Assembly (NCBI RefSeq): GCF_010450875.1
Contig: NZ_CP048422.1
Coordinates: 2,887,001 to 2,951,000 of the forward strand
Length of the DNA stretch: 64,000 nucleotides
Source: Sphingomonas insulae
GTDB lineage: Bacteria; Pseudomonadota; Alphaproteobacteria; Sphingomonadales; Sphingomonadaceae
Direction: 5' to 3'
The notes beneath the pieces are model-generated. The model saw nothing but the letters and a program-made list of their open reading frames with translations. It did no database searches and had not been told where the DNA came from. The position numbers were made by a program, and so were the translations under genes. Below are positions 1 through 17,185 of this stretch, piece after piece (the stretch's first letter is position 1; every line of letters starts with the position of its first letter).

Positions 1-546
1 TCCCTGTCCCGCATCGAGGCGGAGAAATACCGGCTGCCCGGCGATCGGCTCGACCTCGGCGAATTGCTGGAGGATGTCGCCGCGGAGATCGAGGCGGCGC
101 GCAGCCCGCGGGCGGAGAACGTCGCGGTCACCGTCGAACCCGGCCTGCCCGAAGTGGTCGGCGACGAAGCGCAGCTGTCGCAGCTGTTCCACAACCTGAT
201 CGGCAATGCGATGAAATACGGCCGCCCCGGCACGCCGGTGACCGTCACGCTCGGCCTCGATCGATCCGGGCTGCTGCGCTTGACTGTGGTGGACGAAGGC
301 GAAGGCATCGCGCCCCAGCATATCCCGCGCCTGACCGAGCGATTCTATCGCGTCGATGCCGGCCGCAGCCGCAGCGTCGGCGGCACCGGGCTGGGCCTCG
401 CCATCGTCAAGCATATCGTCGAACGGCATCGCGGCCGGCTGGATATCGCCAGCAAGGTGGGGATCGGGACCACCGTATCGGTCGCGATCCCGGCGGCGGA
501 CGCGGTGGCCGGAACATCCACCGGAGCCGCTGTCATCAAAGGGTAA
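1..546 (+). CDS. phoR: Phosphate regulon sensor histidine kinase PhoR, C-terminal part
   Basis: The reading frame is open from the first base, so the start lies outside the window; about 181 codons remain. What is left is the end of the dimerisation helix (SLSRIEAEKYRLP, typical just after the phospho-accepting His in PhoR) and the whole HATPase domain. Visible ATP-binding motifs are the N box HNLIGNAMKYG, the G1 box DEGEGI and the G2 box GGTGLGLAIVK. The family is a membrane sensor kinase that phosphorylates PhoB when phosphate is scarce. Assignment to PhoR rather than another kinase rests on the pst genes directly downstream and phoB at the end of the same run. The last bases carry a candidate Pho box for pstS. 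Confidence 0.9.
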   Translation, partial: SLSRIEAEKYRLPGDRLDLGELLEDVAAEIEAARSPRAENVAVTVEPGLPEVVGDEAQLSQLFHNLIGNAMKYGRPGTPVTVTLGLDRSGLLRLTVVDEGEGIAPQHIPRLTERFYRVDAGRSRSVGGTGLGLAIVKHIVERHRGRLDIASKVGIGTTVSVAIPAADAVAGTSTGAAVIKG

Positions 547-558
547 CCGAACCGTCAC
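530..558 (+). promoter_or_regulatory. Candidate Pho box upstream of pstS
   Basis: Three 7-base half-sites start exactly 11 bases apart: CTGTCAT at 530, GGGTAAC at 541 and CCGTCAC at 552. The 4-base spacers are A-containing (CAAA, CGAA). The first and third resemble the known PhoB half-site CTGTCAT/C; the middle one is weak. The array overlaps the phoR stop codon and ends 42 bases before the pstS ATG, a sensible place for PhoB activation of pstS. This is a pattern match only. Confidence 0.5.
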
Positions 559-600
559 ACAGGCGGGGCGTGGCGACGCGGAGTCGCCCGCGGGGATCCG

Positions 601-1647
601 ATGCGCGTTCTAATCACCGGCCTGATGGGGCTTTGCCTCGCGGGCTGTCAGGACCAGGCAAATGGCGGTGGCGGCGGCGCGCGCGATCAGATCGCCGTGG
701 TCGGATCGTCCACCGTCTATCCGTTCACAACGCTGGTCGCCGAGACGTTCGTCGCCAACAATCCCGACGCCAGGGCACCGGTGATCGAATCGACCGGCAC
801 CGGCGCCGGCATGAAGCTGTTCTGCGCCGGCGTCGGCGCCGGGCATCCCGATATCGAGGATGCCTCGCGACGGATGAAGCGCAGCGAATATGCCGCATGC
901 GCGGCCCATGGCGTCGGCCCGGTGATGGAGGTGCAGATCGGCATCGACGGCATCGCCTTTGCCGAAGCGAAGAACGGGCCGGAAATGACGCTGACGCCGG
1001 CAATCCTGTACCGGGCGCTGGCCGCGAACCCGCTCGGCCGGCGCAACGCCGCAAGGGTGTGGCGCGACGTCGATCCGGCACTGCCCGCGACGCCGATCCA
1101 GGTCTATGGCCCGCCGGCGACCAGCGGCACCCGCGACGCGCTTGCCGAACTGATCCTGACGCGGGGGTGCGAGGCGGTCGATCCGCGCGCCAAGGCGCTG
1201 GCGACGACGAACCCGGCGGCGCACAAGGCGCTGTGCACGCGGGTGCGCGAGGACGGCGCCTATGTCGATGCGGGCGAGAACGACAATCTGATCGTCCAGA
1301 AGCTGTCCGCCAATTCCGATGCGATCGGGGTGTTCGGCTACAGCTATCTCGAACAGAATGCCGGGACAGTGAACGGCGTCGCGATCGACGGCGTCAAGCC
1401 GACCTATACTGCGATCGCCTCCGGCGCCTATCCGGGATCGCGACCGCTGTACGTCTACGTGAAGGCAGCGCATCTGCGGGCGATCCCGGGCCTGGCGACG
1501 TTCCTGACGCTGTATGCGGGTGCCTGGGGTCCGGACGGGCCGCTGGTCCGCCGCGGCCTAATCGCGGCGCCGGCCGACGTGCGGGCGCGGGCGGCGGCGA
1601 TCATCGCGAACGAGACGCCGCTGGATCCGGCGGAGCTGGCGTCGTGA
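601..1647 (+). CDS. pstS: Phosphate ABC transporter, substrate-binding lipoprotein PstS
   Basis: A 348-residue periplasmic phosphate-binding protein. The N-terminus has a short hydrophobic signal ending in LAGC with Cys16, so it is probably a lipoprotein held at the outer face of the inner membrane. Characteristic PstS phosphate-loop sequences are present: GSSTVYPF near residue 40, STGTGAGMK near residue 65 and GPPATSGTRD near residue 170. It delivers phosphate to the PstCA channel. It is the first gene after phoR and sits behind a candidate Pho box, so induction by phosphate limitation is likely. The 202-base gap to pstC is large for this operon and holds a repeat fragment and a hairpin. Confidence 0.93.
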   Translation: MRVLITGLMGLCLAGCQDQANGGGGGARDQIAVVGSSTVYPFTTLVAETFVANNPDARAPVIESTGTGAGMKLFCAGVGAGHPDIEDASRRMKRSEYAACAAHGVGPVMEVQIGIDGIAFAEAKNGPEMTLTPAILYRALAANPLGRRNAARVWRDVDPALPATPIQVYGPPATSGTRDALAELILTRGCEAVDPRAKALATTNPAAHKALCTRVREDGAYVDAGENDNLIVQKLSANSDAIGVFGYSYLEQNAGTVNGVAIDGVKPTYTAIASGAYPGSRPLYVYVKAAHLRAIPGLATFLTLYAGAWGPDGPLVRRGLIAAPADVRARAAAIIANETPLDPAELAS

Positions 1648-1767
1648 GGCGGTTCGTTTCGTCATGCGGGCGGCGGTCGGGGGGATCCGCCGCTATTTTC
1701 CCGATCGTTCTCCGGCAGAGGACGGGGCACGATCGGGGTGCGCTGGCGAGCAGCGACCAAGGGCTGC

Positions 1768-1830
1768 CCAACTGGGCCCCGGCCTTCGCCGGGGAAGCGG
1801 GTGATCGGGGCGTCGGGCGGGGTCGCCCGA
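1768..1830. repeat. Fragment of dispersed palindromic element plus hairpin, pstS-pstC gap
   Basis: Bases 1768-1799 resemble the right half of the dispersed element found at 17192, 23082 and 23378 (shared core around CCCAACTGGGCCCCGGCC). They fold into a GC stem 1777-1783/1788-1794. A second stem, TCGGGCG at 1813-1819 with CGCCCGA at 1824-1830, follows just before pstC. There is no T-run, so it is not a typical intrinsic terminator. It could reduce or protect the transcript between pstS and pstCAB, as is common for repeats after binding-protein genes. Confidence 0.45.
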
Positions 1831-1849
1831 TCCACCAAGGCCGGGCGGC

Positions 1850-3226
1850 ATGAGCGGCCTTGCCATCGTCTTCGTCGTCATCGGGCTGGCGCTGATCGGC
1901 TGGCTCGCCGCACGGATGCGGGCGGCGACGTTCCGCAAGCCGGGCGTGGCGCGCTTCACCGCTTTGCCCGTCCACTACGGCTATTTCGTCGCGATGTGCG
2001 CGGCGATCCCGCCGCTGCTGTTCCTGGCGGTGTGGAGCCTGACCTCGCCCGCGCTGGTCACCGATGCGGTGATCGCCACGCCGGCCGCGGCGGCGCTGCC
2101 GTCGCCGGGGTTCGAGCGCGCATCGATCCTGTCGGAAGCGCGCGCGCTTGCCGCCGGACGGAGCCATGGCGTGTTCCATGCGCTGTCCGGGCGACTGGCG
2201 CCGGCCTATGCGGCGGCGCAGGCGCGATACGACTGGATCGCGACGGCCGTGGCGCTGTTGCTGGCGTTCGTCGGCGGCGGGATGGCCTTCACGCGCGTCC
2301 GGCCCGATTTCGCGGCGCGTACCCAGGTCGAACGCGGCGTCATGCTGCTGCTGCTCGCCGCATCGCTGATCGCGATCCTCACCACGATCGGCATCGTCGC
2401 GTCGCTGCTGTACGAATCGGGCCGCTTCTTCAGCATCGTGCCGATCGGCGAATTCCTGTTCGGCACGCACTGGAGCCCGCAGGTGATCGACCCGCGCGAT
2501 CCGGGCGCCAGCCTGGGCGCGGTGCCGCTGTTCTGGGGGACGTTCTTCATCGGCGCGGTGATCGCGATGGCGGTGGCGATTCCGTTCGGCCTGATGAGCG
2601 CGATCTATCTGACGCAATATGCGCATGCCCGTACCCGCCGCTGGATGAAGCCGGTGCTGGAGATGCTCGCCGGCGTGCCGACCGTCGTCTACGGCTATTT
2701 CGCGGCGCTGACCGTCGCGCCGGCGGTGCGCGAGCTGGCGCTGGCGATCGGCATCGACAACGCCTCGTCGGAAAGCGCGCTGGCGGCGGGCGCGGTGATG
2801 GGGATCATGATCATCCCCTTCGTCTCGTCGATGGCCGACGATTCGATCGCCGCGGTGCCGGCATCGATGCGCGACGGCAGCCTGGCGATGGGCGCGACCA
2901 GTTCGGAAACGATCCGCAAGGTGATCCTGCCCGCGGCGCTGCCCGGTGTCGTCGGCGGCATCCTGCTGGCGGTCAGCCGCGCGATCGGCGAGACGATGAT
3001 CGTCGTCATGGCCGCATCCGGCGTGGCGACGCTGACCGCCAACCCGTTCGCCAGCACCACCACGGTCACCAAGCAGATCGTCGACCTGCTGACCGGCGAG
3101 GCGGAATTCGACAGCGCCAAGACGCTCGCCGCCTTCGCGCTCGGCCTCACCCTGTTCGTCATCACGCTGGCGCTCAACGTCGTCGCGCTGACCGTCGTGA
3201 AGCGGTATCGGGAAGCCTATGAATAG
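1850..3226 (+). CDS. pstC: Phosphate ABC transporter permease PstC
   Basis: A 458-residue inner-membrane permease, longer than the roughly 320-residue enterobacterial PstC. The first 170 residues are an N-terminal extension with two hydrophobic segments, of the kind seen in alphaproteobacterial PstC. The transmembrane permease domain follows. The ABC-permease EAA region is visible as GATSSETIRKVILPAALPGV near residue 345. ATG at 1850 is the first start in frame and gives the usual extended N-terminus. The end overlaps pstA by 8 bases, indicating translational coupling. With PstA it forms the channel energised by PstB. Confidence 0.93.
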   Translation: MSGLAIVFVVIGLALIGWLAARMRAATFRKPGVARFTALPVHYGYFVAMCAAIPPLLFLAVWSLTSPALVTDAVIATPAAAALPSPGFERASILSEARALAAGRSHGVFHALSGRLAPAYAAAQARYDWIATAVALLLAFVGGGMAFTRVRPDFAARTQVERGVMLLLLAASLIAILTTIGIVASLLYESGRFFSIVPIGEFLFGTHWSPQVIDPRDPGASLGAVPLFWGTFFIGAVIAMAVAIPFGLMSAIYLTQYAHARTRRWMKPVLEMLAGVPTVVYGYFAALTVAPAVRELALAIGIDNASSESALAAGAVMGIMIIPFVSSMADDSIAAVPASMRDGSLAMGATSSETIRKVILPAALPGVVGGILLAVSRAIGETMIVVMAASGVATLTANPFASTTTVTKQIVDLLTGEAEFDSAKTLAAFALGLTLFVITLALNVVALTVVKRYREAYE

Positions 3227-4517
3227 CCCCCTCGTCCCCGGCGTGCCCGCGCAGGGCCACGAGCCGGCAGCCCGTCGCCCGACCGACTGGAAGGCCGCGT
3301 CGGTCCAGCGCCGTACCCGCCGCCGCTATGCCGCCGAGCGCCGGTTCCGGCTGATCGGCCTTGCCGCGGTGTGGCTGTCGGCGGGCTTCCTCGCACTGCT
3401 GCTCGCGACCATGCTGTGGCAGGGGGCGAGCGGGTTCCGCCAGACGCGGATCGCGCTGCCGATCGACCTCGCCGCGGCCCGGCTGGCAGTGACCCCGGCA
3501 CAGCTGCGGGAGCGCGGCGCGAACCTGGCGCTGGCCGGCGCCGGCCTGGAAGGCGTCGTCGATCGCGCCGCGGTCCGCGCCTATGGCCAGCACGGTGCCG
3601 ACCTGCTGTCGGACGGCGCCTGGCTGGTGGTGCGCGATGCGATCAAGCGCGATCCCGCCCTGCTGCGCCGATCGACGACGCTGGCGGTGCCGGTCGCCAG
3701 CGCGATCGACGTCGCCGCCAAGCATGACGGCGCCCCGCGGGCGGAGGCGATCGTCGCGCGATTGCAGGCGCGTGGCGTGCTGTCCACCGGCTGGGCGACG
3801 GGTTTCCTCACCACCGCGGATTCGACCGATCCGACCCGGGTCGGCATCTGGGGCGCGTTCAAGGGATCGCTGCTGACGATGCTGGTGACGATCGGCATCG
3901 CATTCCCGATCGGCGTGCTGGCGGCGCTGTACCTCGAGGAATATGCGCCGCGGAACCGCTGGACCGACCTGATCGAGGTGTCGATCAACAATCTGGCCGC
4001 CGTGCCCTCGATCATCTTCGGCCTGCTCGGGCTGGCGGTGTTCCTCGGCACGTTCCACCTGCCGCGCTCGGCACCGCTGGTCGGGGGCCTGACGCTGGCG
4101 CTGATGACGATGCCGGTGATCGTCATCGCCGGGCGCAACGCGATCAAGGCGGTGCCGCCGTCGATCCGCGACGCCGCGCTGGCGGTCGGCGCATCGCCGG
4201 TGCAGGTGGTGTTCGATCACGTCCTGCCGCTGGCGCTGCCCGGTATCCTGACCGGCACGATCATCGGCATGGCGCGCGCACTGGGCGAGACGGCGCCGCT
4301 GCTGATGATCGGCATGCGCGCCTTCATCGCCGCGCCGCCATCGCGGCTGACCGACCCCGCCACGGTGCTGCCGGTGCAGATCTTCCTATGGTCCGACGAC
4401 GTCAATCGCGGCTTCGTCGAAAAGACGTCGGCAGCGATCATCGTGCTGCTCGTCTTCCTGCTCGCGATGAACGGGCTCGCCATCTACCTTCGCAACCGTT
4501 TCGAGACCCGCTGGTGA
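3219..4517 (+). CDS. pstA: Phosphate ABC transporter permease PstA
   Basis: A 432-residue inner-membrane permease, partner of PstC. Residues 1-200 hold one transmembrane helix (near 47-67) and a periplasmic segment corresponding to the DUF3333-type N-terminal extension of alphaproteobacterial PstA. The permease core follows, with an EAA-type loop [20 protein letters not shown] near residue 327. The start ATG lies inside the end of pstC and the stop overlaps the GTG of pstB (GTGA), so pstC, pstA and pstB are tightly coupled. Confidence 0.93.
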
Positions 4518-5272
4518 CCCACAAGATCTCCGCCCACGACGTCAGCGTCTTCTATGGCGACAAACAGGCGATCGACCATGTCTCGATCGACGTCGACCAG
4601 GACAATGTCGTCGCCTTCATCGGCCCCTCGGGCTGCGGCAAATCGACGTTCCTGCGGACGCTGAACCGGATGAACGATACCGTGCCCTCGGCGCGCGTGT
4701 CGGGCGAGATCCTGCTGGACGGCGAAGATATCTATGCGTCGGGCATGGACGTGGTGCAGCTGCGCGCACGGGTCGGCATGGTGTTCCAGAAGCCCAATCC
4801 GTTCCCGAAGTCGATCTACGAGAACGTCGCCTATGGCCCGCGCATCCACGGCCTTGCCACGGCGCGTGCCGACCTGGATGGGCTGGTCGAACAGTCGCTG
4901 CGCCGCGCCGGCCTGTGGGACGAGGTGAAGGATCGCCTGACCGACAGCGGCACCGCCCTGTCGGGCGGCCAGCAGCAGCGGCTGTGCATCGCCCGCGCCA
5001 TCGCGGTCGATCCCGAAGTGATCCTGATGGACGAGCCGTGCAGCGCCCTGGACCCGATCGCGACCGCCAAGATCGAGGAGCTGATCCACGAGCTGAAGGG
5101 CCGCTACGCGATCGTGATCGTCACCCATAACATGCAGCAGGCGGCACGCGTGTCGCAGCAGACCGCGTTCTTCCACCTCGGCCAGCTGGTCGAGTTCGGG
5201 CGGACGGGCGACATCTTCACCAACCCGCGGGAAGAACGCACCCGCGACTATATCACGGGCAGGTACGGTTGA
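4514..5272 (+). CDS. pstB: Phosphate ABC transporter ATPase PstB
   Basis: A 252-residue cytoplasmic ATPase of the Pst transporter. It shows Walker [10 protein letters not shown], the Q-loop region [18 protein letters not shown], the ABC signature [14 protein letters not shown] and Walker [14 protein letters not shown]. The frame is open further upstream, but GTG at 4514 ([20 protein letters not shown]) fits the family N-terminus and overlaps the pstA stop by four bases. The stop overlaps the phoU ATG by one base (TGATG). Confidence 0.95.
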
Positions 5273-5981
5273 TGGTGGATCATACGGTCAAGGCGTTCGA
5301 CGCCGATATCGGCCAGCTGCGTGGAATGATCTCGCAGATGGGCGGGCTGGCGGAGGATGCGATCGGGCTGGCGATGCAGGCGCTCGCCCGCCCCGATCCC
5401 GAGCTCGCCGCAAGGGTGCGCGCCGACGACAAGGCGATCGACGCGATCGAGGCGGAGGTGGAGCGGCTCGCGGTGCGCATCATCGCGCTGCGCGCGCCGA
5501 TGGCGGTCGACCTGCGCGAAGTGGTGGCGGCGCTGAAGATCGCCGCCGTCGTCGAGCGGATCGGCGACTATGCCAAGAACATCGCCAAGCGCGTGCCGCT
5601 GATCGCCAATTCGAATGAGGGGGAGAGTATCGGATCGAGCCGATATCGCTGCTGCCGTCGATGGCGCGGATGGCGAGCGACATGGTCCGCCGCGCGCTCG
5701 ACGCCTTTGCCGCGCGCGATGCCGAGGCAGCGATCCGCGTCGTGGAAAGCGACGCGGCGCTCGACGATTTCTACGACAGCATCTTTCGTACCCTGGTCAC
5801 CTACATGGTCGAGAATCCGCGCACGATCAGCCAGGTCGCGCACCTGCTGTTCGTCGCCAAGAACCTCGAACGTATCGGCGACCACGCCACCAACGTCGCC
5901 GAGATGGTCTATTTCGCGGCGACCGGAACCCAGATGGCCGACCGCGACCGCGGCGGCGCCAGCTTCGAGGACAAACGCTGA
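5272..5981 (+). pseudogene. phoU: Phosphate signalling protein PhoU, interrupted by a frameshift
   Basis: PhoU is the cytoplasmic helical protein linking Pst transport to PhoR. The first half reads in one frame from ATG 5272 ([16 protein letters not shown] to NIAKRVPLIANSNEG). The second half reads in another frame (RIEPISLLPSMARMASDMV to ASFEDKR, stop at 5979-5981). Both halves match PhoU, including the two repeats ending in ERIGDYAKNIAKR and ERIGDHATNVAE. The break lies at a run of five Gs (5619-5623). One extra G would restore a single frame of about 236 residues reading EGGEYRIEP. So the gene is either a real 1-base deletion or a homopolymer sequencing error. Loss of PhoU often leads to constitutive Pho expression, so the difference matters. 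Confidence 0.85.
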
Positions 5982-6673
5982 TGGCACGTGCATCCATGCT
6001 GCTGGTCGAGGACGACGCCGCCCTCGCCGAATTGCTGATCTATCATTTCAAGCGCGAGGATTTCGAGGTCGCGCACACACCGGACGGCGAGGAGGCGTTG
6101 CTGCTCGCCAAGGAAAAGGCGCCCGACATCGTGCTGCTCGACTGGATGGTCGAGGGCCTGTCCGGGATCGAGGTCTGCCGCCGCCTGCGCCGGATGACCG
6201 AGACGCAGAACGTGCCGATCATCATGCTGACCGCGCGCGGCGAGGAAGAGGATCGCATCCGCGGGCTGGAGACGGGCGCGGACGATTACGTCACCAAGCC
6301 CTTCAGCCCCCGCGAGCTGGTCGCCCGCGTCAGTGCGGTGCTGCGTCGCGTCCGGCCGGCGCTGGCGGGCGAGGCGTTGACCTATGACGACATCGAGATG
6401 GATACCGTCGGCCACAAGGTCCGCCGCTCGGGCGAGGTCGTGCCGCTCGGCCCGACGGAATTCCGGCTGCTGAAGCATTTCCTCGAACATCCCGGCTGGG
6501 TGTTCAGCCGCGAACGACTGCTGGATGCGGTGTGGGGGCATGACAGCGACATCGAAAGCCGCACGGTCGATGTCCACATCCGGCGGCTGCGCAAGGCGAT
6601 CAACGTCGGCGACCGCCCGGACCTGATCCGCACCGTCCGGTCGGCCGGATATTCGCTCGATTCGGGCGCGTAA
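5981..6673 (+). CDS. phoB: Phosphate regulon response regulator PhoB
   Basis: A 230-residue OmpR/PhoB-family regulator. The receiver domain (1-120) has the acidic pair D11/D12, phospho-acceptor D54 in VLLDWMVEG, T84 and K106 in YVTKPFS. The winged-helix DNA-binding domain (about 130-230) includes GPTEFRLLKHFLEHPGWVFS and TVDVHIRRLRKAI. ATG at 5981 overlaps the phoU stop by one base (TGATG). Phosphorylated by PhoR, it activates Pho-box promoters such as the candidate at 530-558. Confidence 0.95.
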   Translation: MARASMLLVEDDAALAELLIYHFKREDFEVAHTPDGEEALLLAKEKAPDIVLLDWMVEGLSGIEVCRRLRRMTETQNVPIIMLTARGEEEDRIRGLETGADDYVTKPFSPRELVARVSAVLRRVRPALAGEALTYDDIEMDTVGHKVRRSGEVVPLGPTEFRLLKHFLEHPGWVFSRERLLDAVWGHDSDIESRTVDVHIRRLRKAINVGDRPDLIRTVRSAGYSLDSGA

Positions 6674-8297: not shown

Positions 8298-9317
8298 ATG
8301 TACAGCGAGAGTGACATCGACGGCGCGGTGACCGCGGGGGTGCTGTCGGCCGATGCGGCGGCGGCGTTGCGCGCGCACGTCGCGTCCAGCCATGCAAGTC
8401 CGGCGGTGGACGAAGAACATTTCCGCCTGCTGACCGGGTTCAACGACATCTTCGTATCGATCGCGCTGGTGCTGCTGCTGGTCGCGGTGGGGCAGATCGG
8501 CCTGTCGATCACCTATGCCGCGGGCGGCGTGCTGGTCGCGGCGGCGGCGTGGGGCCTTGCCGAATATTTCACCGCGCGCCGCCGGATGGCGCTGCCCAGT
8601 ATCCTGCTACTGATCGCCTTCGTCGGCGGCATTGCCGGCGCGCTGTACGCGCTGGTCGAAACGGTGGCCCCGCATATCGACGGACGCGCCGGGGCGCTGG
8701 CAGCGGCGGGCGTCGCCTTTTGCTCGGCGGCGGCGGCGTGGGTGCATTGGCGACGGTTCATGGTGCCGATCACCGTCGCTGCGGGCGCGGCGGCGCTGGT
8801 CGGGACCGCCATCGGACTGGTCGTCGCGGCGTTTCCGACGGTCGGGCAGACGGTGTGGCCGCTGCTGCTGGTCGGCGGCCTGGGCGTGTTCGCCACCGCG
8901 ATGCGATGGGACATGAGCGACACGCGGCGCCAGACGCGCCGATCGGACGTCGCATTCTGGCTGCACCTCGTCGCCGCACCGATGATCGCGCATTCGATCT
9001 TCCAGATGCTGGGCGTGTTCCGGGGCGAGATCGGCGCCGGCATGGCGGCGGTGGTGCTGGCGCTCTACGTCTGTTTCGCCGGCATCGCGCTGGCGGTCGA
9101 CCGGCGCGCCTTGCTGGTCAGCGGCCTCGCCTATGTCCTGGCCGCCCTGTACGCGCTGTTCCGCAGCGCCGGGGCGATCGAGCTTGGCGCCGCGCTCACC
9201 GCCTTCGTCATCGGATCGGCATTGCTGTGCCTGTCCGCCTTCTGGCAGCCGATGCGCCGGGCCGTCGTCAACGCCCTGGCGCCATCGTGGCGCCGCAGCC
9301 TGCCGGTCGCCGCCTGA
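8298..9317 (+). CDS. DUF2157-like multispanning membrane protein
   Basis: A 339-residue inner-membrane protein. An N-terminal cytoplasmic stretch of about 55 residues (acidic, helical, MYSESDIDGAVTAGVLSADA) is followed by roughly nine or ten hydrophobic helices. The layout, a short helical head and then many helices, resembles DUF2157 proteins, whose function is unknown. The start is set by the GGGGAGG Shine-Dalgarno, which is itself held in a hairpin. It stands alone between an SDR gene and the HPr-rel-A-like unit. Confidence 0.65.
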   Translation: MYSESDIDGAVTAGVLSADAAAALRAHVASSHASPAVDEEHFRLLTGFNDIFVSIALVLLLVAVGQIGLSITYAAGGVLVAAAAWGLAEYFTARRRMALPSILLLIAFVGGIAGALYALVETVAPHIDGRAGALAAAGVAFCSAAAAWVHWRRFMVPITVAAGAAALVGTAIGLVVAAFPTVGQTVWPLLLVGGLGVFATAMRWDMSDTRRQTRRSDVAFWLHLVAAPMIAHSIFQMLGVFRGEIGAGMAAVVLALYVCFAGIALAVDRRALLVSGLAYVLAALYALFRSAGAIELGAALTAFVIGSALLCLSAFWQPMRRAVVNALAPSWRRSLPVAA

Positions 9318-9419: not shown

Positions 9420-9842
9420 ATGAACGACGCGACGCCGACCGACGGCCACGACGAAGCGCAGACCAGGGACGGGACCATCCCGACCCGGCGGCGTGTACTG
9501 ATACTCGGCGCGGTGACGGCGGGTGCGGTCGTGTCGATCCGCCCGGCCCTGGCGCAGACCGCGGGGTCGGTGATGACGTGCGAGATCCCGGTGCCGGACA
9601 TAGCGCGTGCCGGGCAGTTCATCGATCCGGCCGGCAACGTCGTCGCGGCCGGCACCAAGGGCGCATTCCCGCCGGCATCGCGCCCGTTCAAGGGCGAAGA
9701 GGTGAAACGGGCGCTCGCCGGCAGCCAGTTGCCCGGCACGACGTACGAGAGCAACCGCGCCTACGTCAGCTACATCCGCCGCCTGCAACGCGGCCAGGGC
9801 GGCTTCACCTGCTTCGCCTCGTTGCAGATGCCGCGCGCCTGA
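9420..9842 (+). CDS. Tat-type exported small protein of the HPr-rel-A-like unit
   Basis: A 140-residue protein of unknown function. A 22-residue hydrophilic head precedes a twin-arginine-like signal (RRRVLILGAVTAGAVVSI, residues 23-40), with a likely cleavage at ALA-Q near residue 45. The mature part is about 95 residues with two cysteines (Cys54 in MTCEIPVPD and Cys131 in GGFTCFASL). It ends only four bases before the PqqD-like gene and is co-directional with the kinase and nucleotidyltransferase. It is therefore the obvious candidate client of those proteins, but this is inferred from position only. Confidence 0.7.
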   Translation: MNDATPTDGHDEAQTRDGTIPTRRRVLILGAVTAGAVVSIRPALAQTAGSVMTCEIPVPDIARAGQFIDPAGNVVAAGTKGAFPPASRPFKGEEVKRALAGSQLPGTTYESNRAYVSYIRRLQRGQGGFTCFASLQMPRA

Positions 9843-9846
9843 GCCG

Positions 9847-10113
9847 GTGCGCTATCGCGCCCCGCCGGCCGAGGCGTTGCTGACCGCGGACCTCGATGCG
9901 TTCACCGCCGTGTTCCACCGCCCTTCCGGCATCACCCATCTGCTCGCCAGTCCGGCGCCGGAGATCCTGGCGGCGCTGGCGGATGGGCCGCTCGACAGGC
10001 CGGCGCTGCTCGCCACCCTGGCCGCGACGTTCGACCTGGCCGATGCCGATGACGAAGCGCTGGCCGCCCGCCTCGACGAGCTGGTCGTCGCGGGCCTGAT
10101 CGAGGCGGCATGA
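9847..10113 (+). CDS. PqqD-like peptide-binding protein (HPr-rel-A system)
   Basis: An 88-residue protein with the PqqD/RRE-like winged-helix pattern: a strand segment (FTAVFHRPSGITHLLASP) followed by helices rich in Ala and Leu (EILAALADGPLDRPALLATL, then a second helix set to the end). PqqD-type domains bind leader peptides of ribosomally made, modified peptides. The start is GTG at 9847, four bases after the upstream stop. The end overlaps the kinase gene by ATGA. Its combination with an HprK-related kinase and a nucleotidyltransferase is the signature of the named but uncharacterised HPr-rel-A system. Confidence 0.75.
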   Translation: MRYRAPPAEALLTADLDAFTAVFHRPSGITHLLASPAPEILAALADGPLDRPALLATLAATFDLADADDEALAARLDELVVAGLIEAA

Positions 10114-10964
10114 GGCACGCCTTTTCGGTACGGATCGGGCCGATCGGGTTTCGCATCGGCAGCGACTGGCGCGCGCCGATCGACCAGCTGCGCGAGTTGT
10201 ACCGTTACTACCCCTCGCCCAACCTGCCCGATTTCACCGTGCGGCTGGAAGCGACGCGGCCGTGGCGGCGCTGGGTCCGCCCGTCGATCCGCCTCGCCGG
10301 GGACAATATGCTGCCGGAGGCGGCACCGTTGCCGCTGGCGCAGGGGCTGCTCGCCGCCGAGATGGCGATGAACCTGCAACTGGCGCTGGGCGGGCGGCGC
10401 TATCTGTTGCTCCACGCCTCGTGCGTCGAGCGTGACGGGCGCGCGGTGCTGATGACCGGCGAATCGGGCGCGGGCAAGTCGACGCTCGCCACGCTGCTGG
10501 CGGCGCGAGGGTGGCGATTCATGGGCGACGAGTTCGCGCTGGTCGACCCCGACACCGGGCTGGTCCACGCCTTTCCCCGGCTCATCAGCCTGAAGAATGC
10601 CGGGATCGCCGCGGCGATGGCGGCGCGGCCGGATGCGCGGTTCGGGCCGCTGCTTGCCGGTACGCCCAAGGGCGACATCCGCCACATGGTGCCCGACGGG
10701 CTGGCGGTGGGCGCGATGGACGAACCCGCCCGCCCCGCCCTGCTGCTCTACCCGCGCTTCGGCTTCGCCGCCGCCACCACGCCGGTGCGCGCCAGCGAAT
10801 CGTTCGTGCGGCTGACGCAGGCATCGACCAATTACGTCGCGATGGGCGAGGCCGGGTTCGGCGCACTCTGCCAACTGGTGCGATCGACGCCGGCGCATGC
10901 GATCGACTATCCCGACGGTGCCGCGGCGGTGGCGCAGGTGGAGGCGCTGTGGCGGACGCTCTGA
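10110..10964 (+). CDS. HprK-related kinase A
   Basis: A 284-residue protein related to the C-terminal domain of HPr kinase/phosphorylase. A P-loop GESGAGKST lies at residues 117-125. HASCVE near 102-107 precedes it, and GDEFALVDPD (139-148) occupies the place of the following acidic motif in HprK. No HPr or PTS gene is nearby. Kinases of this kind also tailor some lasso peptides by phosphorylation, so a peptide or protein substrate is plausible. It overlaps the PqqD-like gene by four bases and the nucleotidyltransferase by 16, indicating a coupled unit. Confidence 0.8.
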   Translation: MRHAFSVRIGPIGFRIGSDWRAPIDQLRELYRYYPSPNLPDFTVRLEATRPWRRWVRPSIRLAGDNMLPEAAPLPLAQGLLAAEMAMNLQLALGGRRYLLLHASCVERDGRAVLMTGESGAGKSTLATLLAARGWRFMGDEFALVDPDTGLVHAFPRLISLKNAGIAAAMAARPDARFGPLLAGTPKGDIRHMVPDGLAVGAMDEPARPALLLYPRFGFAAATTPVRASESFVRLTQASTNYVAMGEAGFGALCQLVRSTPAHAIDYPDGAAAVAQVEALWRTL

Positions 10965-11932
10965 TCCTCGCCCGCGCGCTGGCCGACCCGCAGTCGCTGA
11001 CGCTCGACACCGATTGGGTGGGGCTGATCACCACCGCCAGGGCTGAGCTGCTGCTCGGCACCCTCGCCTATCGGCTCGACGGGCTGCCGCTGCCCGAGGA
11101 CGTGGCGCTGCTGCTGGCGGATGCGCGCGCCGCGGCGGAGAACGGGCGCCGTGCCGCATTGTGGGAGGCGGAGATGGCGCGACGGGCGCTGGCGCCGCTC
11201 GATTGTCCGGTGCTGCTGCTGAAGGGCACCGCCTTCGTCGCGGCGGGGCTGACGGCGGGGCGCGGCCGGTCGATCGGCGACCTCGACATCCTGGTGCCAC
11301 GCGGGTCGCTGGATGCCGTCGAGGCGGCGCTGCTGGCGGCGGGATGGGAATGGGTGAAGCCGGACCCGTATGACGATGCCTATTACCGGCGCTGGATGCA
11401 CGAGCTGCCGCCGCTGATCCACCGCGAGCGCGACCGGATGATCGACGTCCATCACACCATCCTGCCGCCGACCGCGCGCATCACCCCCGATGCCGCCGCG
11501 CTGATCGCCGATGCGCAACCGCTGGGCAACGCCCTGTCGGTGCCGTCGCCGAACGACATGCTGGTCCATGCCGCCGCGCATCTGCTGGCCGACGGCGACC
11601 TTGCCGGGGCCTTGCGCAACCTGTGGGACATCCATTGCCTGATCGAGGATCATGGCATCGACGGCCTCGCCGCGCGGGCGCGCCACCATGGCCTGTCGCG
11701 GGAGGTCGATCGTGCGTTGCGCCTGGTCCGCCGCCTGTTCGGAACGCCGGTGCCCGAGATGCCGGCACGGTGGGCGGACGTCCTCTACCTGCGCCGCGTG
11801 CTGGCCCGCGACGATTGGGGGCGGCCGATCCGGCCGTTCACCCGCCTTGCCTTCTACATCCGGTCGCATTGGCTGCGGATGCCGCCGGCGATGCTTGCGC
11901 GGCACCTGTGGACGAAGTGGCGGCGGGCGTAG
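10949..11932 (+). CDS. Nucleotidyltransferase family protein (HPr-rel-A system)
   Basis: A protein of about 327 residues of the NTP_transf_5 type. LLKGTAF near residue 90 and RSIGDLDILVP near 108-117 (Asp111 and Asp113 as metal ligands) are the nucleotidyltransferase core, followed by a substrate-domain motif DVHHTI. The frame is open upstream, but GTG at 10949 is the first plausible start and gives a 16-base overlap with the kinase gene. In the phosphorylated lasso-peptide clusters I know of, an HprK-like kinase and a nucleotidyltransferase of this kind also occur together. Transfer of a nucleotide to a phosphorylated client is one possible role, unproven. Confidence 0.75.
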   Translation: MADALILARALADPQSLTLDTDWVGLITTARAELLLGTLAYRLDGLPLPEDVALLLADARAAAENGRRAALWEAEMARRALAPLDCPVLLLKGTAFVAAGLTAGRGRSIGDLDILVPRGSLDAVEAALLAAGWEWVKPDPYDDAYYRRWMHELPPLIHRERDRMIDVHHTILPPTARITPDAAALIADAQPLGNALSVPSPNDMLVHAAAHLLADGDLAGALRNLWDIHCLIEDHGIDGLAARARHHGLSREVDRALRLVRRLFGTPVPEMPARWADVLYLRRVLARDDWGRPIRPFTRLAFYIRSHWLRMPPAMLARHLWTKWRRA

Positions 11933-15124: not shown

Positions 15125-15384
15125 GATCGTGTCCCCCTGCGGTTAGCGTCGCGAAGGATCACGGCCGATCCCGATAGGACAGCGCGATTTTTCGGCGGCG
15201 GGTTCGTGGTGGTTTGAGAGCGATTTGCCGGAGTGTGAGGGGCGGCGGCGTCCAACGGGCACGCGTTCGATCCGCCGTTGCGTCGCGAGTCGGCGAAGGT
15301 AGGTGGTGCGACGCGGTGCGCTTCGGAGCCGGTGAGGGGCGACGGGGGGATATTGGCTGGTCGCGGCGCGGCCAGCCCACCATC

Positions 15385-15461
15385 CGTCATTGCGAGCGCA
15401 GCGAAGCAATCCAGTGCGCCCTGGTCCGACCCTGGATTGCTTCGCTGCGCTCGCAATGACG
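15385..15461. repeat. Perfect 30-base inverted repeat (REP-like)
   Basis: Bases 15385-15414 and 15432-15461 are perfect reverse complements (arms starting CGTCATTGCGAGCGCAGCGA) around a 17-base spacer. This is the common sphingomonad intergenic palindrome. It lies in the 591-base gap between the endolysin and SulP genes. The rest of that gap, apart from the leader near the SulP gene, shows nothing I can name. Confidence 0.85.
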
Positions 15462-15565
15462 CGGATGAGGCGCGGTTCAGGCCAGCGCCTGCCGGCCGCC
15501 TAGCCCTCGCTTACCCTCGTATACTGCCGCCCTCCCCTCCCCGTTGCACCGCAGCATGTTTATCG

Positions 15566-15640
15566 GTATTGCGCGGGCAATCGCATGGACCCGGTGCAAA
15601 TCCGGGTGGCTATTCCGGCCGCCGATCCGCCGGACAACGT
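15566..15640 (+). ncRNA. Candidate structured leader RNA of the SulP gene
   Basis: Three short stems lie in series: ATTGC/GCAAT (15568-15572/15577-15581), ACCCGG/CCGGGT (15589-15594/15602-15607, loop TGCAAAT) and TCCGG/CCGGA (15614-15618/15630-15634). The start codon follows 76 bases later. A class of alphaproteobacterial leader RNAs upstream of sulfate transporters (sul1) has been described; whether this is one cannot be settled by eye. Confidence 0.35.
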
Positions 15641-15715
15641 AAACCGACCCCGACATCCCTCCGTCGCGCCCGATCGCGCGATGCCCGTCGCGGCGGTCAA
15701 TGCGGACCCCCTTTC

Positions 15716-17185
15716 ATGACATCCTCCCTCTCCCGCTATCGGGCCGAATGGTATGGCGGTGCCGCCGCGGCGCGGCGCGACGTGCTTGCCGGCATGGTCG
15801 GCACCTTTGCGCTGATCCCCGAGGTCATCGCCTTTTCCTTCGTCGCCGGCATCGATCCGCAAGTCGGCCTGTTCGCCTCGTTCGTCATCGGTATCGTCAT
15901 CGCGATCTTCGGCGGGCGGCCGGCGATGATCTCCGGCGCGGCAGGATCGGTGGCGCTGGTCGCCGCGGCGCTGGTCCACAGCCACGGCCTGTCCTATCTG
16001 CTGGGTGCGACGATGCTGGCGGGCGTGTTCCAGATCGTCTTCGGGTTGCTAAGGCTCGACGTGCTGATGCGCTTCGTATCGAAGTCGGTGCGAACAGGCT
16101 TCGTCAACGCATTGGCGATCCTGATCTTTTCCGCGCAGGTGCCGCAGCTGGTCGGTGTCGACTGGCACACCTATGCGATGATCGCGCTGGGCCTCGCGAT
16201 CATCTATCTGGTGCCGCGGCTGACCACCGCCATCCCGTCGCCATTGATCTGCATCGTCGTGCTGACCGCGATCAGCATCGCGTTTCCGATGCCGTTGCGC
16301 ACCGTCGCCGACCTCGGCCGGCTACCGGCGTCGCTACCCCATCTCGCATGGCCGTCGCTGCCGCTGGAATGGCGGACGCTGAGCATCATCGCGCCCTATG
16401 CGCTGGCGATGGCGGCGGTGGGCCTGCTCGAATCGATGATGACGGCAAGGGTGGTCGACGAACTGACCGAGAGCAACAGCGACGGGCCACGTGAATGCAC
16501 CGGGCTGGGCCTCGCCAACGTCGCCGCAGGGATGTTCGGCGGGATCGCGGGGTGCGGCATGATCGGGCAGACCGTCGGCAACGTCCGCTATGGCGGGCGC
16601 GGGCGGCTGTCGACGCTGGTGGCGGGTGTGTTCCTGCTGGTCGTGATGGTGCCGCTGCGTCCGTGGGTGGCGCAGGTGCCGGTCGCGGCGCTGGTCGCGA
16701 TCATGGTGATGGTATCCGCCAGCACCTTCGCCTGGGGATCGCTGCGCGATCTCGGGCGGCACCCCAAGGTATCGGGGCTGGTGATGCTGGCGACCGTCGC
16801 GGTGACGGTGGCAACGCACGACCTGTCGATGGGCGTCGCCGTCGGCGTGCTGATGAGCGGCGTGTTCTTCGCGTTCAAGGTGACGCGGCTGATGCACGTG
16901 GCGGTCGGCTATGACGCGGACAACGACACGCGGACGTACGACGTGTCCGGGCAGGTGTTCTTCGCGAGTGCCGAAATCTTCGCCGACCGATTCGACCTGC
17001 GCGACGAGGCGGCACGGGTGCGGATCGACCTGACCGCGGCGCATCTGTGGGACATCACCGCCGTGGCGGCGCTGGAGGACGTGGTGGCCAAGCTGCGCAG
17101 CCACGGCATCGCGGCGGAGGTGGTGGGCCTGAACGCGGCGAGCAGCGTGCTGGTCGACCGGCATGCGCCGTTGGTGATGGGGTGA
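15716..17185 (+). CDS. SulP family anion transporter with STAS domain
   Basis: A 489-residue SulP (SLC26-like) transporter. About ten to twelve hydrophobic helices span residues 25-395, with family motifs such as GMVGTFALIPEVIAFS, AGSVALVAAAL and GGIAGCGMIGQTVGNVRYGG. A cytoplasmic STAS domain occupies roughly 400-489 (FFASAEIFADRFD, LTAAHLWDITAVAALEDVV). The frame is open upstream through repeat DNA; ATG 15716 begins the conserved sequence (MTSSLSRYRAEWYGG). The substrate (sulfate, bicarbonate or another anion) cannot be told. A structured-looking leader suggests regulation at RNA level. Confidence 0.85.
   Translation: MTSSLSRYRAEWYGGAAAARRDVLAGMVGTFALIPEVIAFSFVAGIDPQVGLFASFVIGIVIAIFGGRPAMISGAAGSVALVAAALVHSHGLSYLLGATMLAGVFQIVFGLLRLDVLMRFVSKSVRTGFVNALAILIFSAQVPQLVGVDWHTYAMIALGLAIIYLVPRLTTAIPSPLICIVVLTAISIAFPMPLRTVADLGRLPASLPHLAWPSLPLEWRTLSIIAPYALAMAAVGLLESMMTARVVDELTESNSDGPRECTGLGLANVAAGMFGGIAGCGMIGQTVGNVRYGGRGRLSTLVAGVFLLVVMVPLRPWVAQVPVAALVAIMVMVSASTFAWGSLRDLGRHPKVSGLVMLATVAVTVATHDLSMGVAVGVLMSGVFFAFKVTRLMHVAVGYDADNDTRTYDVSGQVFFASAEIFADRFDLRDEAARVRIDLTAAHLWDITAVAALEDVVAKLRSHGIAAEVVGLNAASSVLVDRHAPLVMG

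Follow-up and report, generated by a model that had tools for sequence, protein, structure and literature searches.

What does an HprK-related kinase act on when it is encoded with a PqqD-like protein, a nucleotidyltransferase and a small twin-arginine protein, and with no HPr gene beside it? This question is raised by four genes in a 64,000-nucleotide stretch of Sphingomonas insulae (order Sphingomonadales; NCBI RefSeq assembly GCF_010450875.1, contig NZ_CP048422.1, positions 2,887,001 to 2,951,000), hereafter the window, whose own numbering is used for coordinates. A preliminary description drawn from the DNA letters had suggested that the small protein, which we call the client, is phosphorylated and then nucleotidylated before export. 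In the genomes sampled from the order, client and kinase occur together without exception. By analogy with pathways for ribosomally synthesised and post-translationally modified peptides (RiPPs), we consider it reasonably probable that the four genes form a RiPP-like protein-tailoring cassette, in which the client is the substrate of an adaptor-guided kinase and then of the transferase, and is exported by twin-arginine translocation (Tat).

A four-gene cassette of the HPr-rel-A system

As the preliminary description had it, the genes for the client, the PqqD-like protein, the kinase and the nucleotidyltransferase are tightly packed on one strand (9420-11932, +), with a gap of 4 bases followed by overlaps of 4 and 16 bases. 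The client gene (9420-9842, +; ATG at 9420, stop codon at 9840-9842) encodes 140 residues, including a twin-arginine leader at residues 22-46 (TRRRVLILGAVTAGAVVSIRPALAQ; 9483-9557, +) that would serve as signal and probably as adaptor-binding leader. None of 11 clients searched, the window's and ten others, was recognised by an NCBIfam or Pfam model over its cut-off. The PqqD-like gene (9847-10113, +; GTG start at 9847) overlaps the kinase gene, and its product, probably a leader-binding adaptor of the RiPP recognition element (RRE) type by analogy, matches TIGR04353 at 63.7 bits against a cut-off of 35. HprK-related kinase A (10110-10964, +) matches TIGR04352 at 232.7 bits (cut-off 200) and carries H102 (10413-10415), an intact P-loop (G117-S124, 10458-10481) and D140-E141 (10527-10532). 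The nucleotidyltransferase (10949-11932, +), which probably starts at the GTG at 10949, matches NTP_transf_5 (PF14907) at 169 bits (cut-off 31.2), with D111 at 11279-11281, D113 at 11285-11287 and D166 at 11444-11446.

These matches bear out the three enzyme and adaptor identities first proposed and, since kinase and PqqD-like protein both exceed curated cut-offs, they assign the cassette by sequence to the NCBIfam HPr-rel-A system (TIGR04352, TIGR04353), to which the client, its motifs and a Pho linkage are added here. The families had been said to carry names without a described function, and we likewise found no description of the system's function in open-licence papers. The claim that an HPr or phosphotransferase system partner is lacking holds at the locus, but two HPr-domain matches occur at other places on this contig.

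Client and kinase occur in the same genomes

A client profile (A2) was made from 36 client sequences of 121-263 residues, spanning seven families of the order as well as other classes. A2 matches and the kinase share exactly 81 of 147 order genomes, the client being present in 81/81 genomes with the kinase and in 0/66 without it. The preliminary description had named a lack of such co-conservation as one of the observations that would speak against it; these counts also rule out that the client is a chance neighbour. The kinase set comprises matches of 187 bits or more: TIGR04352 is over its cut-off in 79 genomes, and two more, at 197.7 and 187.8 bits, lie below it (G093, G006). All ten sampled genomes of the window's genus have the system. 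Thirteen client rows below 42 bits were excluded from the order count; most are a second match within an open frame already represented, and two are weak separate places (G058:C5 and G005). The Fisher value for the association, 1.8e-43, overstates its certainty, since the genomes are not phylogenetically independent. A2 was built from kinase-adjacent clients and could therefore overlook a client that has diverged strongly in a genome without the kinase. Up to 24 candidates per genome were scored in the order search and up to nine in a phylum search.

In the phylum sample, 61 of 398 genomes have the kinase over its cut-off, and a client is present in 59 of them, with 50 found through the profile (E 3e-7 or better, counting the fairly weak matches of G246, G270 and G322 at 3e-7, 9e-10 and 1e-8) and nine of a second type (loci L064, L065, L078, L085, L091, L092, L094, L096 and L097). 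Five phylum genomes without the kinase gave weak A2 matches (E 6e-5 to 6e-4), which we did not take for clients.

In 75 of the 81 order genomes no more than 3 kb separates client and kinase; in six (G035, G045, G053, G080, G097 and G119) the client was found away from the kinase, and for G045, a fragmented assembly, on a different contig only. An additional client copy away from the cassette is present in eight genomes (G029, G046, G052, G055, G070, G073, G087 and G099). Remote copies at L166, L168 and L171 adjoin an open frame of about 430 residues that looks by eye like an RNA polymerase sigma-type factor, which may mean that these clients are separately regulated. A plasmid-borne trait was rejected, because just one of 72,556 plasmid records has the client (a Sphingomonas replicon of 880 kb), as was an anti-phage system, none of the four proteins having a PADLOC match.

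Gene order is conserved across loci

Gene order was compared in 101 loci, namely the window and wide regions fetched for 100 further genomes, out of some 129 with the kinase (81 from the order and 48 from elsewhere). These loci were scanned with profiles iterated on the data. The kinase was found in 101 loci, the transferase in 97, the PqqD-like gene in 91 and the client in 83 (87 clients; 61 of 66 order loci and 22 of 35 others). All four genes are present in 79 loci, in 78 of them on one strand in the order client, PqqD-like protein, kinase, transferase, and such a conserved order of four gene types recognised by profile argues that the arrangement is not due to chance. In the 79th locus (L081) kinase and transferase share one open frame of 708 amino acids, which suggests that they carry out consecutive steps. 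The client is upstream of the kinase on the same strand in 82 of the 83 loci; the exception is L077, with the client and the PqqD-like gene side by side on the opposite strand. Two clients occur in four loci, and in one of these, L108, a client lies between the PqqD-like gene and the kinase. As to the 18 loci without a profile client, nine have a client of the second type and eight have a client elsewhere in the genome (L079, L080, L088, L093, L105, L146, L151 and L154), so that L062 remains.

A collection of named relatives, the best 80 of 575 and mostly Sphingomonas, gave the same picture, with kinase, PqqD-like gene and transferase in 80/80 loci, a client upstream in 78 (not in L208 and L235) and an [ST]CxxS motif in 78/78 clients. 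This collection is not fully independent, as it partly overlaps the first set (L229, L237 and L253 against G039, G125 and G132). One of its records, titled Bacillus sp. 2B10 (L212), has a Sphingomonas-type cassette with a kinase 69% identical to the window's, and is probably a mislabelled or contaminated assembly.

Conserved residues of the client and of the enzymes

Homologues of the window client number 2018 at E<=1e-3. Clients from different families share little sequence, 29 of the other 35 rows of A2 being only 15-27% identical to the window client; R24, C54 (9579-9581, +), C131 and S134 are nevertheless kept in all 36 sequences. The last two belong to a C-terminal CxxS (C131-F-A-S134; 9810-9821, +). 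Within the last 60 residues, the pattern [ST]-C-x-x-S-hydrophobic is found in 85 of the 87 profile clients (exceptions L086 and L095), and its serine is at most ten residues from the client end in 73 of these 85. Another serine, S50 (9567-9569, +), stands near the leader four residues before C54 and is conserved in 66/66 sequences of a further alignment (A3). Among the 87 clients a leader-proximal serine is at position -4 from the first cysteine in 66 and at most five residues upstream of it in 85.

Among 66 aligned close clients, the mean frequency of the top residue is 0.88 in the leader, 0.87 in the stretch after it and 0.91 at the C-terminus, as against 0.43 in the N-terminal tail ahead of the leader. 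The leader is thus conserved beyond what a signal peptide would seem to need, and recognition by a partner would explain this. The middle of the client is hypervariable, a feature shared with RiPP precursors, from near absent up to repeats of Ser/His/Asp, Asn/Gly or Asp. Such repeats, seen in L112, L108 and L157, are possibly metal-binding or matrix-like.

The client is probably exported, judging from its sequence: by permissive patterns applied without a control, all 87 client open frames have RR-x-h-h and 84 have an AxA-like site. The Tat signal named in the preliminary description is supported by this twin-arginine pattern and its conservation. The window client is unmatched by NCBIfam Tat models and has a sub-threshold match to the Pfam Tat-signal entry UCR_Fe-S_N (E 0.012), and among the ten other clients the nearest to an NCBIfam Tat model, that of L092, reaches 14.8 bits against 16.7. 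Second-type clients, identified by pattern and by eye rather than by profile, occupy the client's position in the locus. They combine the same kind of twin-arginine leader with an unrelated-looking body, in many cases containing an SPG[WYFN]-like stretch, and most have a serine near the leader.

Active-site residues of both enzymes do not vary: H102, G122, K123, D140, E141 and other residues are invariant in 101/101 kinases, and K92, G93, R107, D111, D113, D166 and others in 97/97 transferases. Compared with solved structures, the kinase has distant matches only, HprK chains among them at E 0.0012, and the nucleotidyltransferase has none. Against the HPr kinase/phosphorylase model TIGR00679 the kinase scores 26 bits, below the cut-off of 240; the likeness is a distant sequence relation around the P-loop, and, unlike HPr kinase/phosphorylase, the enzyme belongs to a cassette with no HPr gene.

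Linkage to phoR-type genes and to exosortase A

The preliminary description did not mention the Pho or exosortase linkages, a second type of client or the [ST]CxxS motif. For each genome the highest-scoring listed PhoR-type match was used, with a floor of about 241 bits (131 genomes). Of the 70 client genomes with both genes on one contig, 67 have this PhoR-type gene no more than 3 kb from the nearest client, a count made without a control gene pair. The exceptions are the window's genome, G027 and G034; all six genomes whose client is away from the kinase have a PhoR-type gene within 3 kb of the client. The remaining client genomes comprise three without a listed PhoR match and eight with the best match on another contig. 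The curated PhoR cut-off is reached in 0/147 order genomes, and five client-adjacent PhoR-type proteins matched PhoR or PnpS models best, below cut-off. In the named collection a PhoR-type gene lies within the flank of 69 of 78 client loci.

In the window, the cassette is preceded by a Pst-Pho locus (1-6673, +), which is part of its setting and not of the cassette. From Pfam domains and order, with gene names assigned by us, this locus comprises the end of a PhoR-type kinase, a phosphate-binding protein, PstC-, PstA- and PstB-type genes, PhoU and a PhoB-type regulator. The pst, phoU and phoB-type genes thus stand between phoR and the cassette on the same strand, and the PhoR-type match (G000:C4:2886524-2887486, below the curated cut-off) is 9.9 kb from the client. 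In seven named relatives (L177-L183) phoR is upstream on the opposite strand, and the most similar relative, L176, has no phoR within 4 kb, so that the window's lineage seems to have been rearranged. Within the locus, phoU (5269-5980) shows a PhoU domain to about 5640 and then apparently continues in another frame, a frameshift that may be due to sequencing or real.

Pho boxes, scanned with a consensus in the 350 bases upstream of clients, scored at least 11 of 14 in 17 of 65 order clients against 37 of 650 shuffles, and in 2 of 22 clients of other classes against 12 of 220 shuffles; the window's upstream region scores 10, which is chance level. This result proves nothing for the client, since the phoR promoter often occupies that stretch as well.

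The cassette is also linked to exosortase A outside the window's family. Exosortase A (108 genomes, down to 177 bits, nine of them below the curated cut-off) accompanies the kinase in 75 of 81 genomes and is present in 33 of the 66 that lack it; with the cut-off applied the counts are 66 of 81 and 33 of 66. Where exosortase A and kinase are on one contig (47 genomes), they are at most 20 kb apart in 35 and at least 180 kb apart in the remaining 12, to which the window's genome belongs. At L074, from another class, two neighbours are an XrtA/PEP-CTERM amidotransferase (TIGR03108) and a glycosyltransferase (TIGR03087), both over cut-off, and the single neighbour gene searched at L078 encodes a trypsin-type protease. 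The link is not general, because outside the order only 12 of 48 kinase genomes of the phylum sample have exosortase A over its cut-off.

Comparison with known phospho-tailoring pathways

Adaptor, kinase, transferase and putative precursor are encoded together and co-inherited, as in a RiPP-type phospho-tailoring pathway; the enzymes are a curated family, and the proposed mechanism resembles known phospho-RiPP tailoring. That the same protein types tailor phosphorylated lasso peptides, as the preliminary description noted, agrees with the literature, in which such a trio is reported to phosphorylate a precursor serine both there and in the linear polyphosphorylated peptides (LPPs) of Bacillota described in 2026 (PMC9266682, PMC13381572). 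Paeninodin and pseudomycoidin are made with an RRE, an HprK-like kinase with an essential His-Lys-Asp-Asp set that phosphorylates a conserved C-terminal serine, and a nucleotidyltransferase-like second enzyme; PsmN installs hexoses on the phosphoserine of pseudomycoidin, true nucleotidylation being left possible (PMC9266682). In contrast, the cassette has a large client, a Tat-type leader and, in our alignment, glutamate as the fourth catalytic residue, and the window's genome gave no lasso cyclase match that reached the cut-off.

LPP clusters share with the cassette a discrete RRE, an HprK-like kinase, an NTP transferase and a linear precursor with a conserved N-terminus and a variable remainder (PMC13381572). 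There LppK phosphorylates one serine, S3 of the linear core, and presentation of the leader to its peptidase depends on the RRE. LPP clusters often lie close to capsule loci (PMC13381572), much as the cassette, outside the window's family, often has exosortase genes nearby. LPPs have a dedicated SpI-like peptidase, an MsbA-like pump, a YxxPxVL leader and, in the studied case, a core of 45 amino acids (PMC13381572), whereas the cassette, from a different phylum, has a Tat-type signal and protein-sized clients with two conserved cysteines. Neither such a peptidase nor such a pump is among the window neighbours searched; that search did not extend to genes downstream of the cassette, to the remainder of the genome or to the majority of the other loci. 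The leader motif YxxPxVLxHQxIxFETxxS is absent from the window client, whose residues 1-46 contain neither Y nor W, and from the A2 consensus.

Proposed mechanism and alternative explanations

In the tailoring pathway that we favour, the Tat-type signal would double as a RiPP-like leader gripped by the PqqD-like adaptor, which would present the client to the kinase for phosphorylation of a conserved serine. S134 has roughly an even chance of being this site, since it never varies in A2 and a C-terminal serine is also the target in lasso peptides. S50 is a slightly less likely candidate, in view of the LPP precedent and of the second client type, mostly with a leader-near serine. The nucleotidyltransferase would then extend the phosphate with a nucleotide or sugar-phosphate group, and the modified client would leave by the Tat route, a housekeeping signal peptidase removing the leader and a C54-C131 disulfide being formed. 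Nucleotidylation, as put forward in the preliminary description, is one candidate for the second step and sugar transfer another, the related enzyme PsmN having given hexoses. The product may serve in the phosphate response or at the cell surface, for instance with exopolysaccharide. The most specific version is a disulfide-closed, Tat-exported phosphoprotein or phosphoglycoprotein that bears a phosphodiester-linked nucleotide or sugar on serine, belongs to the phosphate-starvation programme of Sphingomonadales and has its modification coupled to phosphate status by the HprK-type kinase; as a whole this is rather unlikely.

Several observations weigh against the tailoring reading. In our alignment the fourth residue of the lasso-kinase set is replaced by glutamate in 101/101 kinases (His-Lys-Asp-Glu), the window client's leader lacks the [Y/W]xxP motif bound by LPP and lasso adaptors, and the LPP transferase LppN is reported to have shown no visible activity in its heterologous host (PMC13381572). 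Of the 101 loci, 10 have no match to the PqqD-like profile and four none to the transferase profile, and kinase and transferase are more than 1 kb apart in seven (L067, L074-L076, L082, L087 and L088). Two of the 61 phylum genomes with the kinase, G428 and G330 (57% complete; region not fetched), gave no client. Moreover, none of the nine second-type clients has a CxxS within its last 45 residues, and together with L086 and L095 these show that S134 is not a universal site.

Bacterial HprK is both a kinase and a phosphorylase that uses inorganic phosphate. The cassette might be a regulatory switch within Pho signalling: an enzyme of the HprK kinase/phosphorylase type would respond to phosphate or energy state by modifying the client reversibly, and the client might, for instance, adjust PhoR from the periplasmic side. 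The proximity of clients to phoR-type genes, including those six that lie away from the kinase, and the window cassette's place downstream of a Pst-Pho locus speak for such a switch, but a simple one needs neither a transferase nor a PqqD-like adaptor, the hypervariable middle of the client is unlike a conserved sensor, and neighbours outside the order include exosortase-system genes (L074) and a trypsin-type protease (L078); we regard it as improbable. Equally improbable is that the trio acts on another protein or a small molecule, the client being a co-inherited periplasmic scaffold or immunity-like protein. The distant relation of the kinase to HprK, the HPr-domain proteins of the genome and the clients located far from the cassette fit this idea, whereas the exceptionless joint occurrence in 147 genomes, the extra client copies in eight genomes, the invariant serine and cysteines in otherwise barely alignable clients and the strong conservation of the leader argue that the client itself is the substrate.

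An offshoot of lasso biosynthesis, with an antimicrobial or signalling peptide cut from the client, would account for the adaptor, kinase and transferase types shared with phosphorylated lasso clusters and for the C-terminal serine (PMC9266682, PMC13381572). It is nonetheless very improbable, given the presence of the system throughout the sampled genus and the fact that no short core is evident in A2 clients, which are protein-sized and conserved at both ends. A lasso cluster was rejected: the best cyclase match of the genome scores 189.8 bits against a cut-off of 525, and it begins 0.7 kb past exosortase A, which suggests an exosortase-system amidotransferase.

To our knowledge, the client superfamily, its exceptionless co-occurrence with the kinase in the order sample, the motif, the second client type and the phoR linkage are new. 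They supply a named gene system with a likely substrate and identify residues to test, and the tie to phoR points to a growth condition under which to look. If the tailoring reading is right, RiPP-style leader-guided modification would extend to whole Tat-exported proteins, in 81 of the 147 sampled genomes of the order.

Other features of the window

Upstream of the client, 8298-9317 encodes a protein of 339 amino acids that is membrane-type by eye and has no Pfam or NCBIfam match at E<=1. Beyond the cassette, a sul1 RNA (RF03058, 80.6 bits) is found at 15584-15639 (+), inside a long open frame (15278-17185) whose part after the RNA reads like what we take to be a SulP-type transporter.

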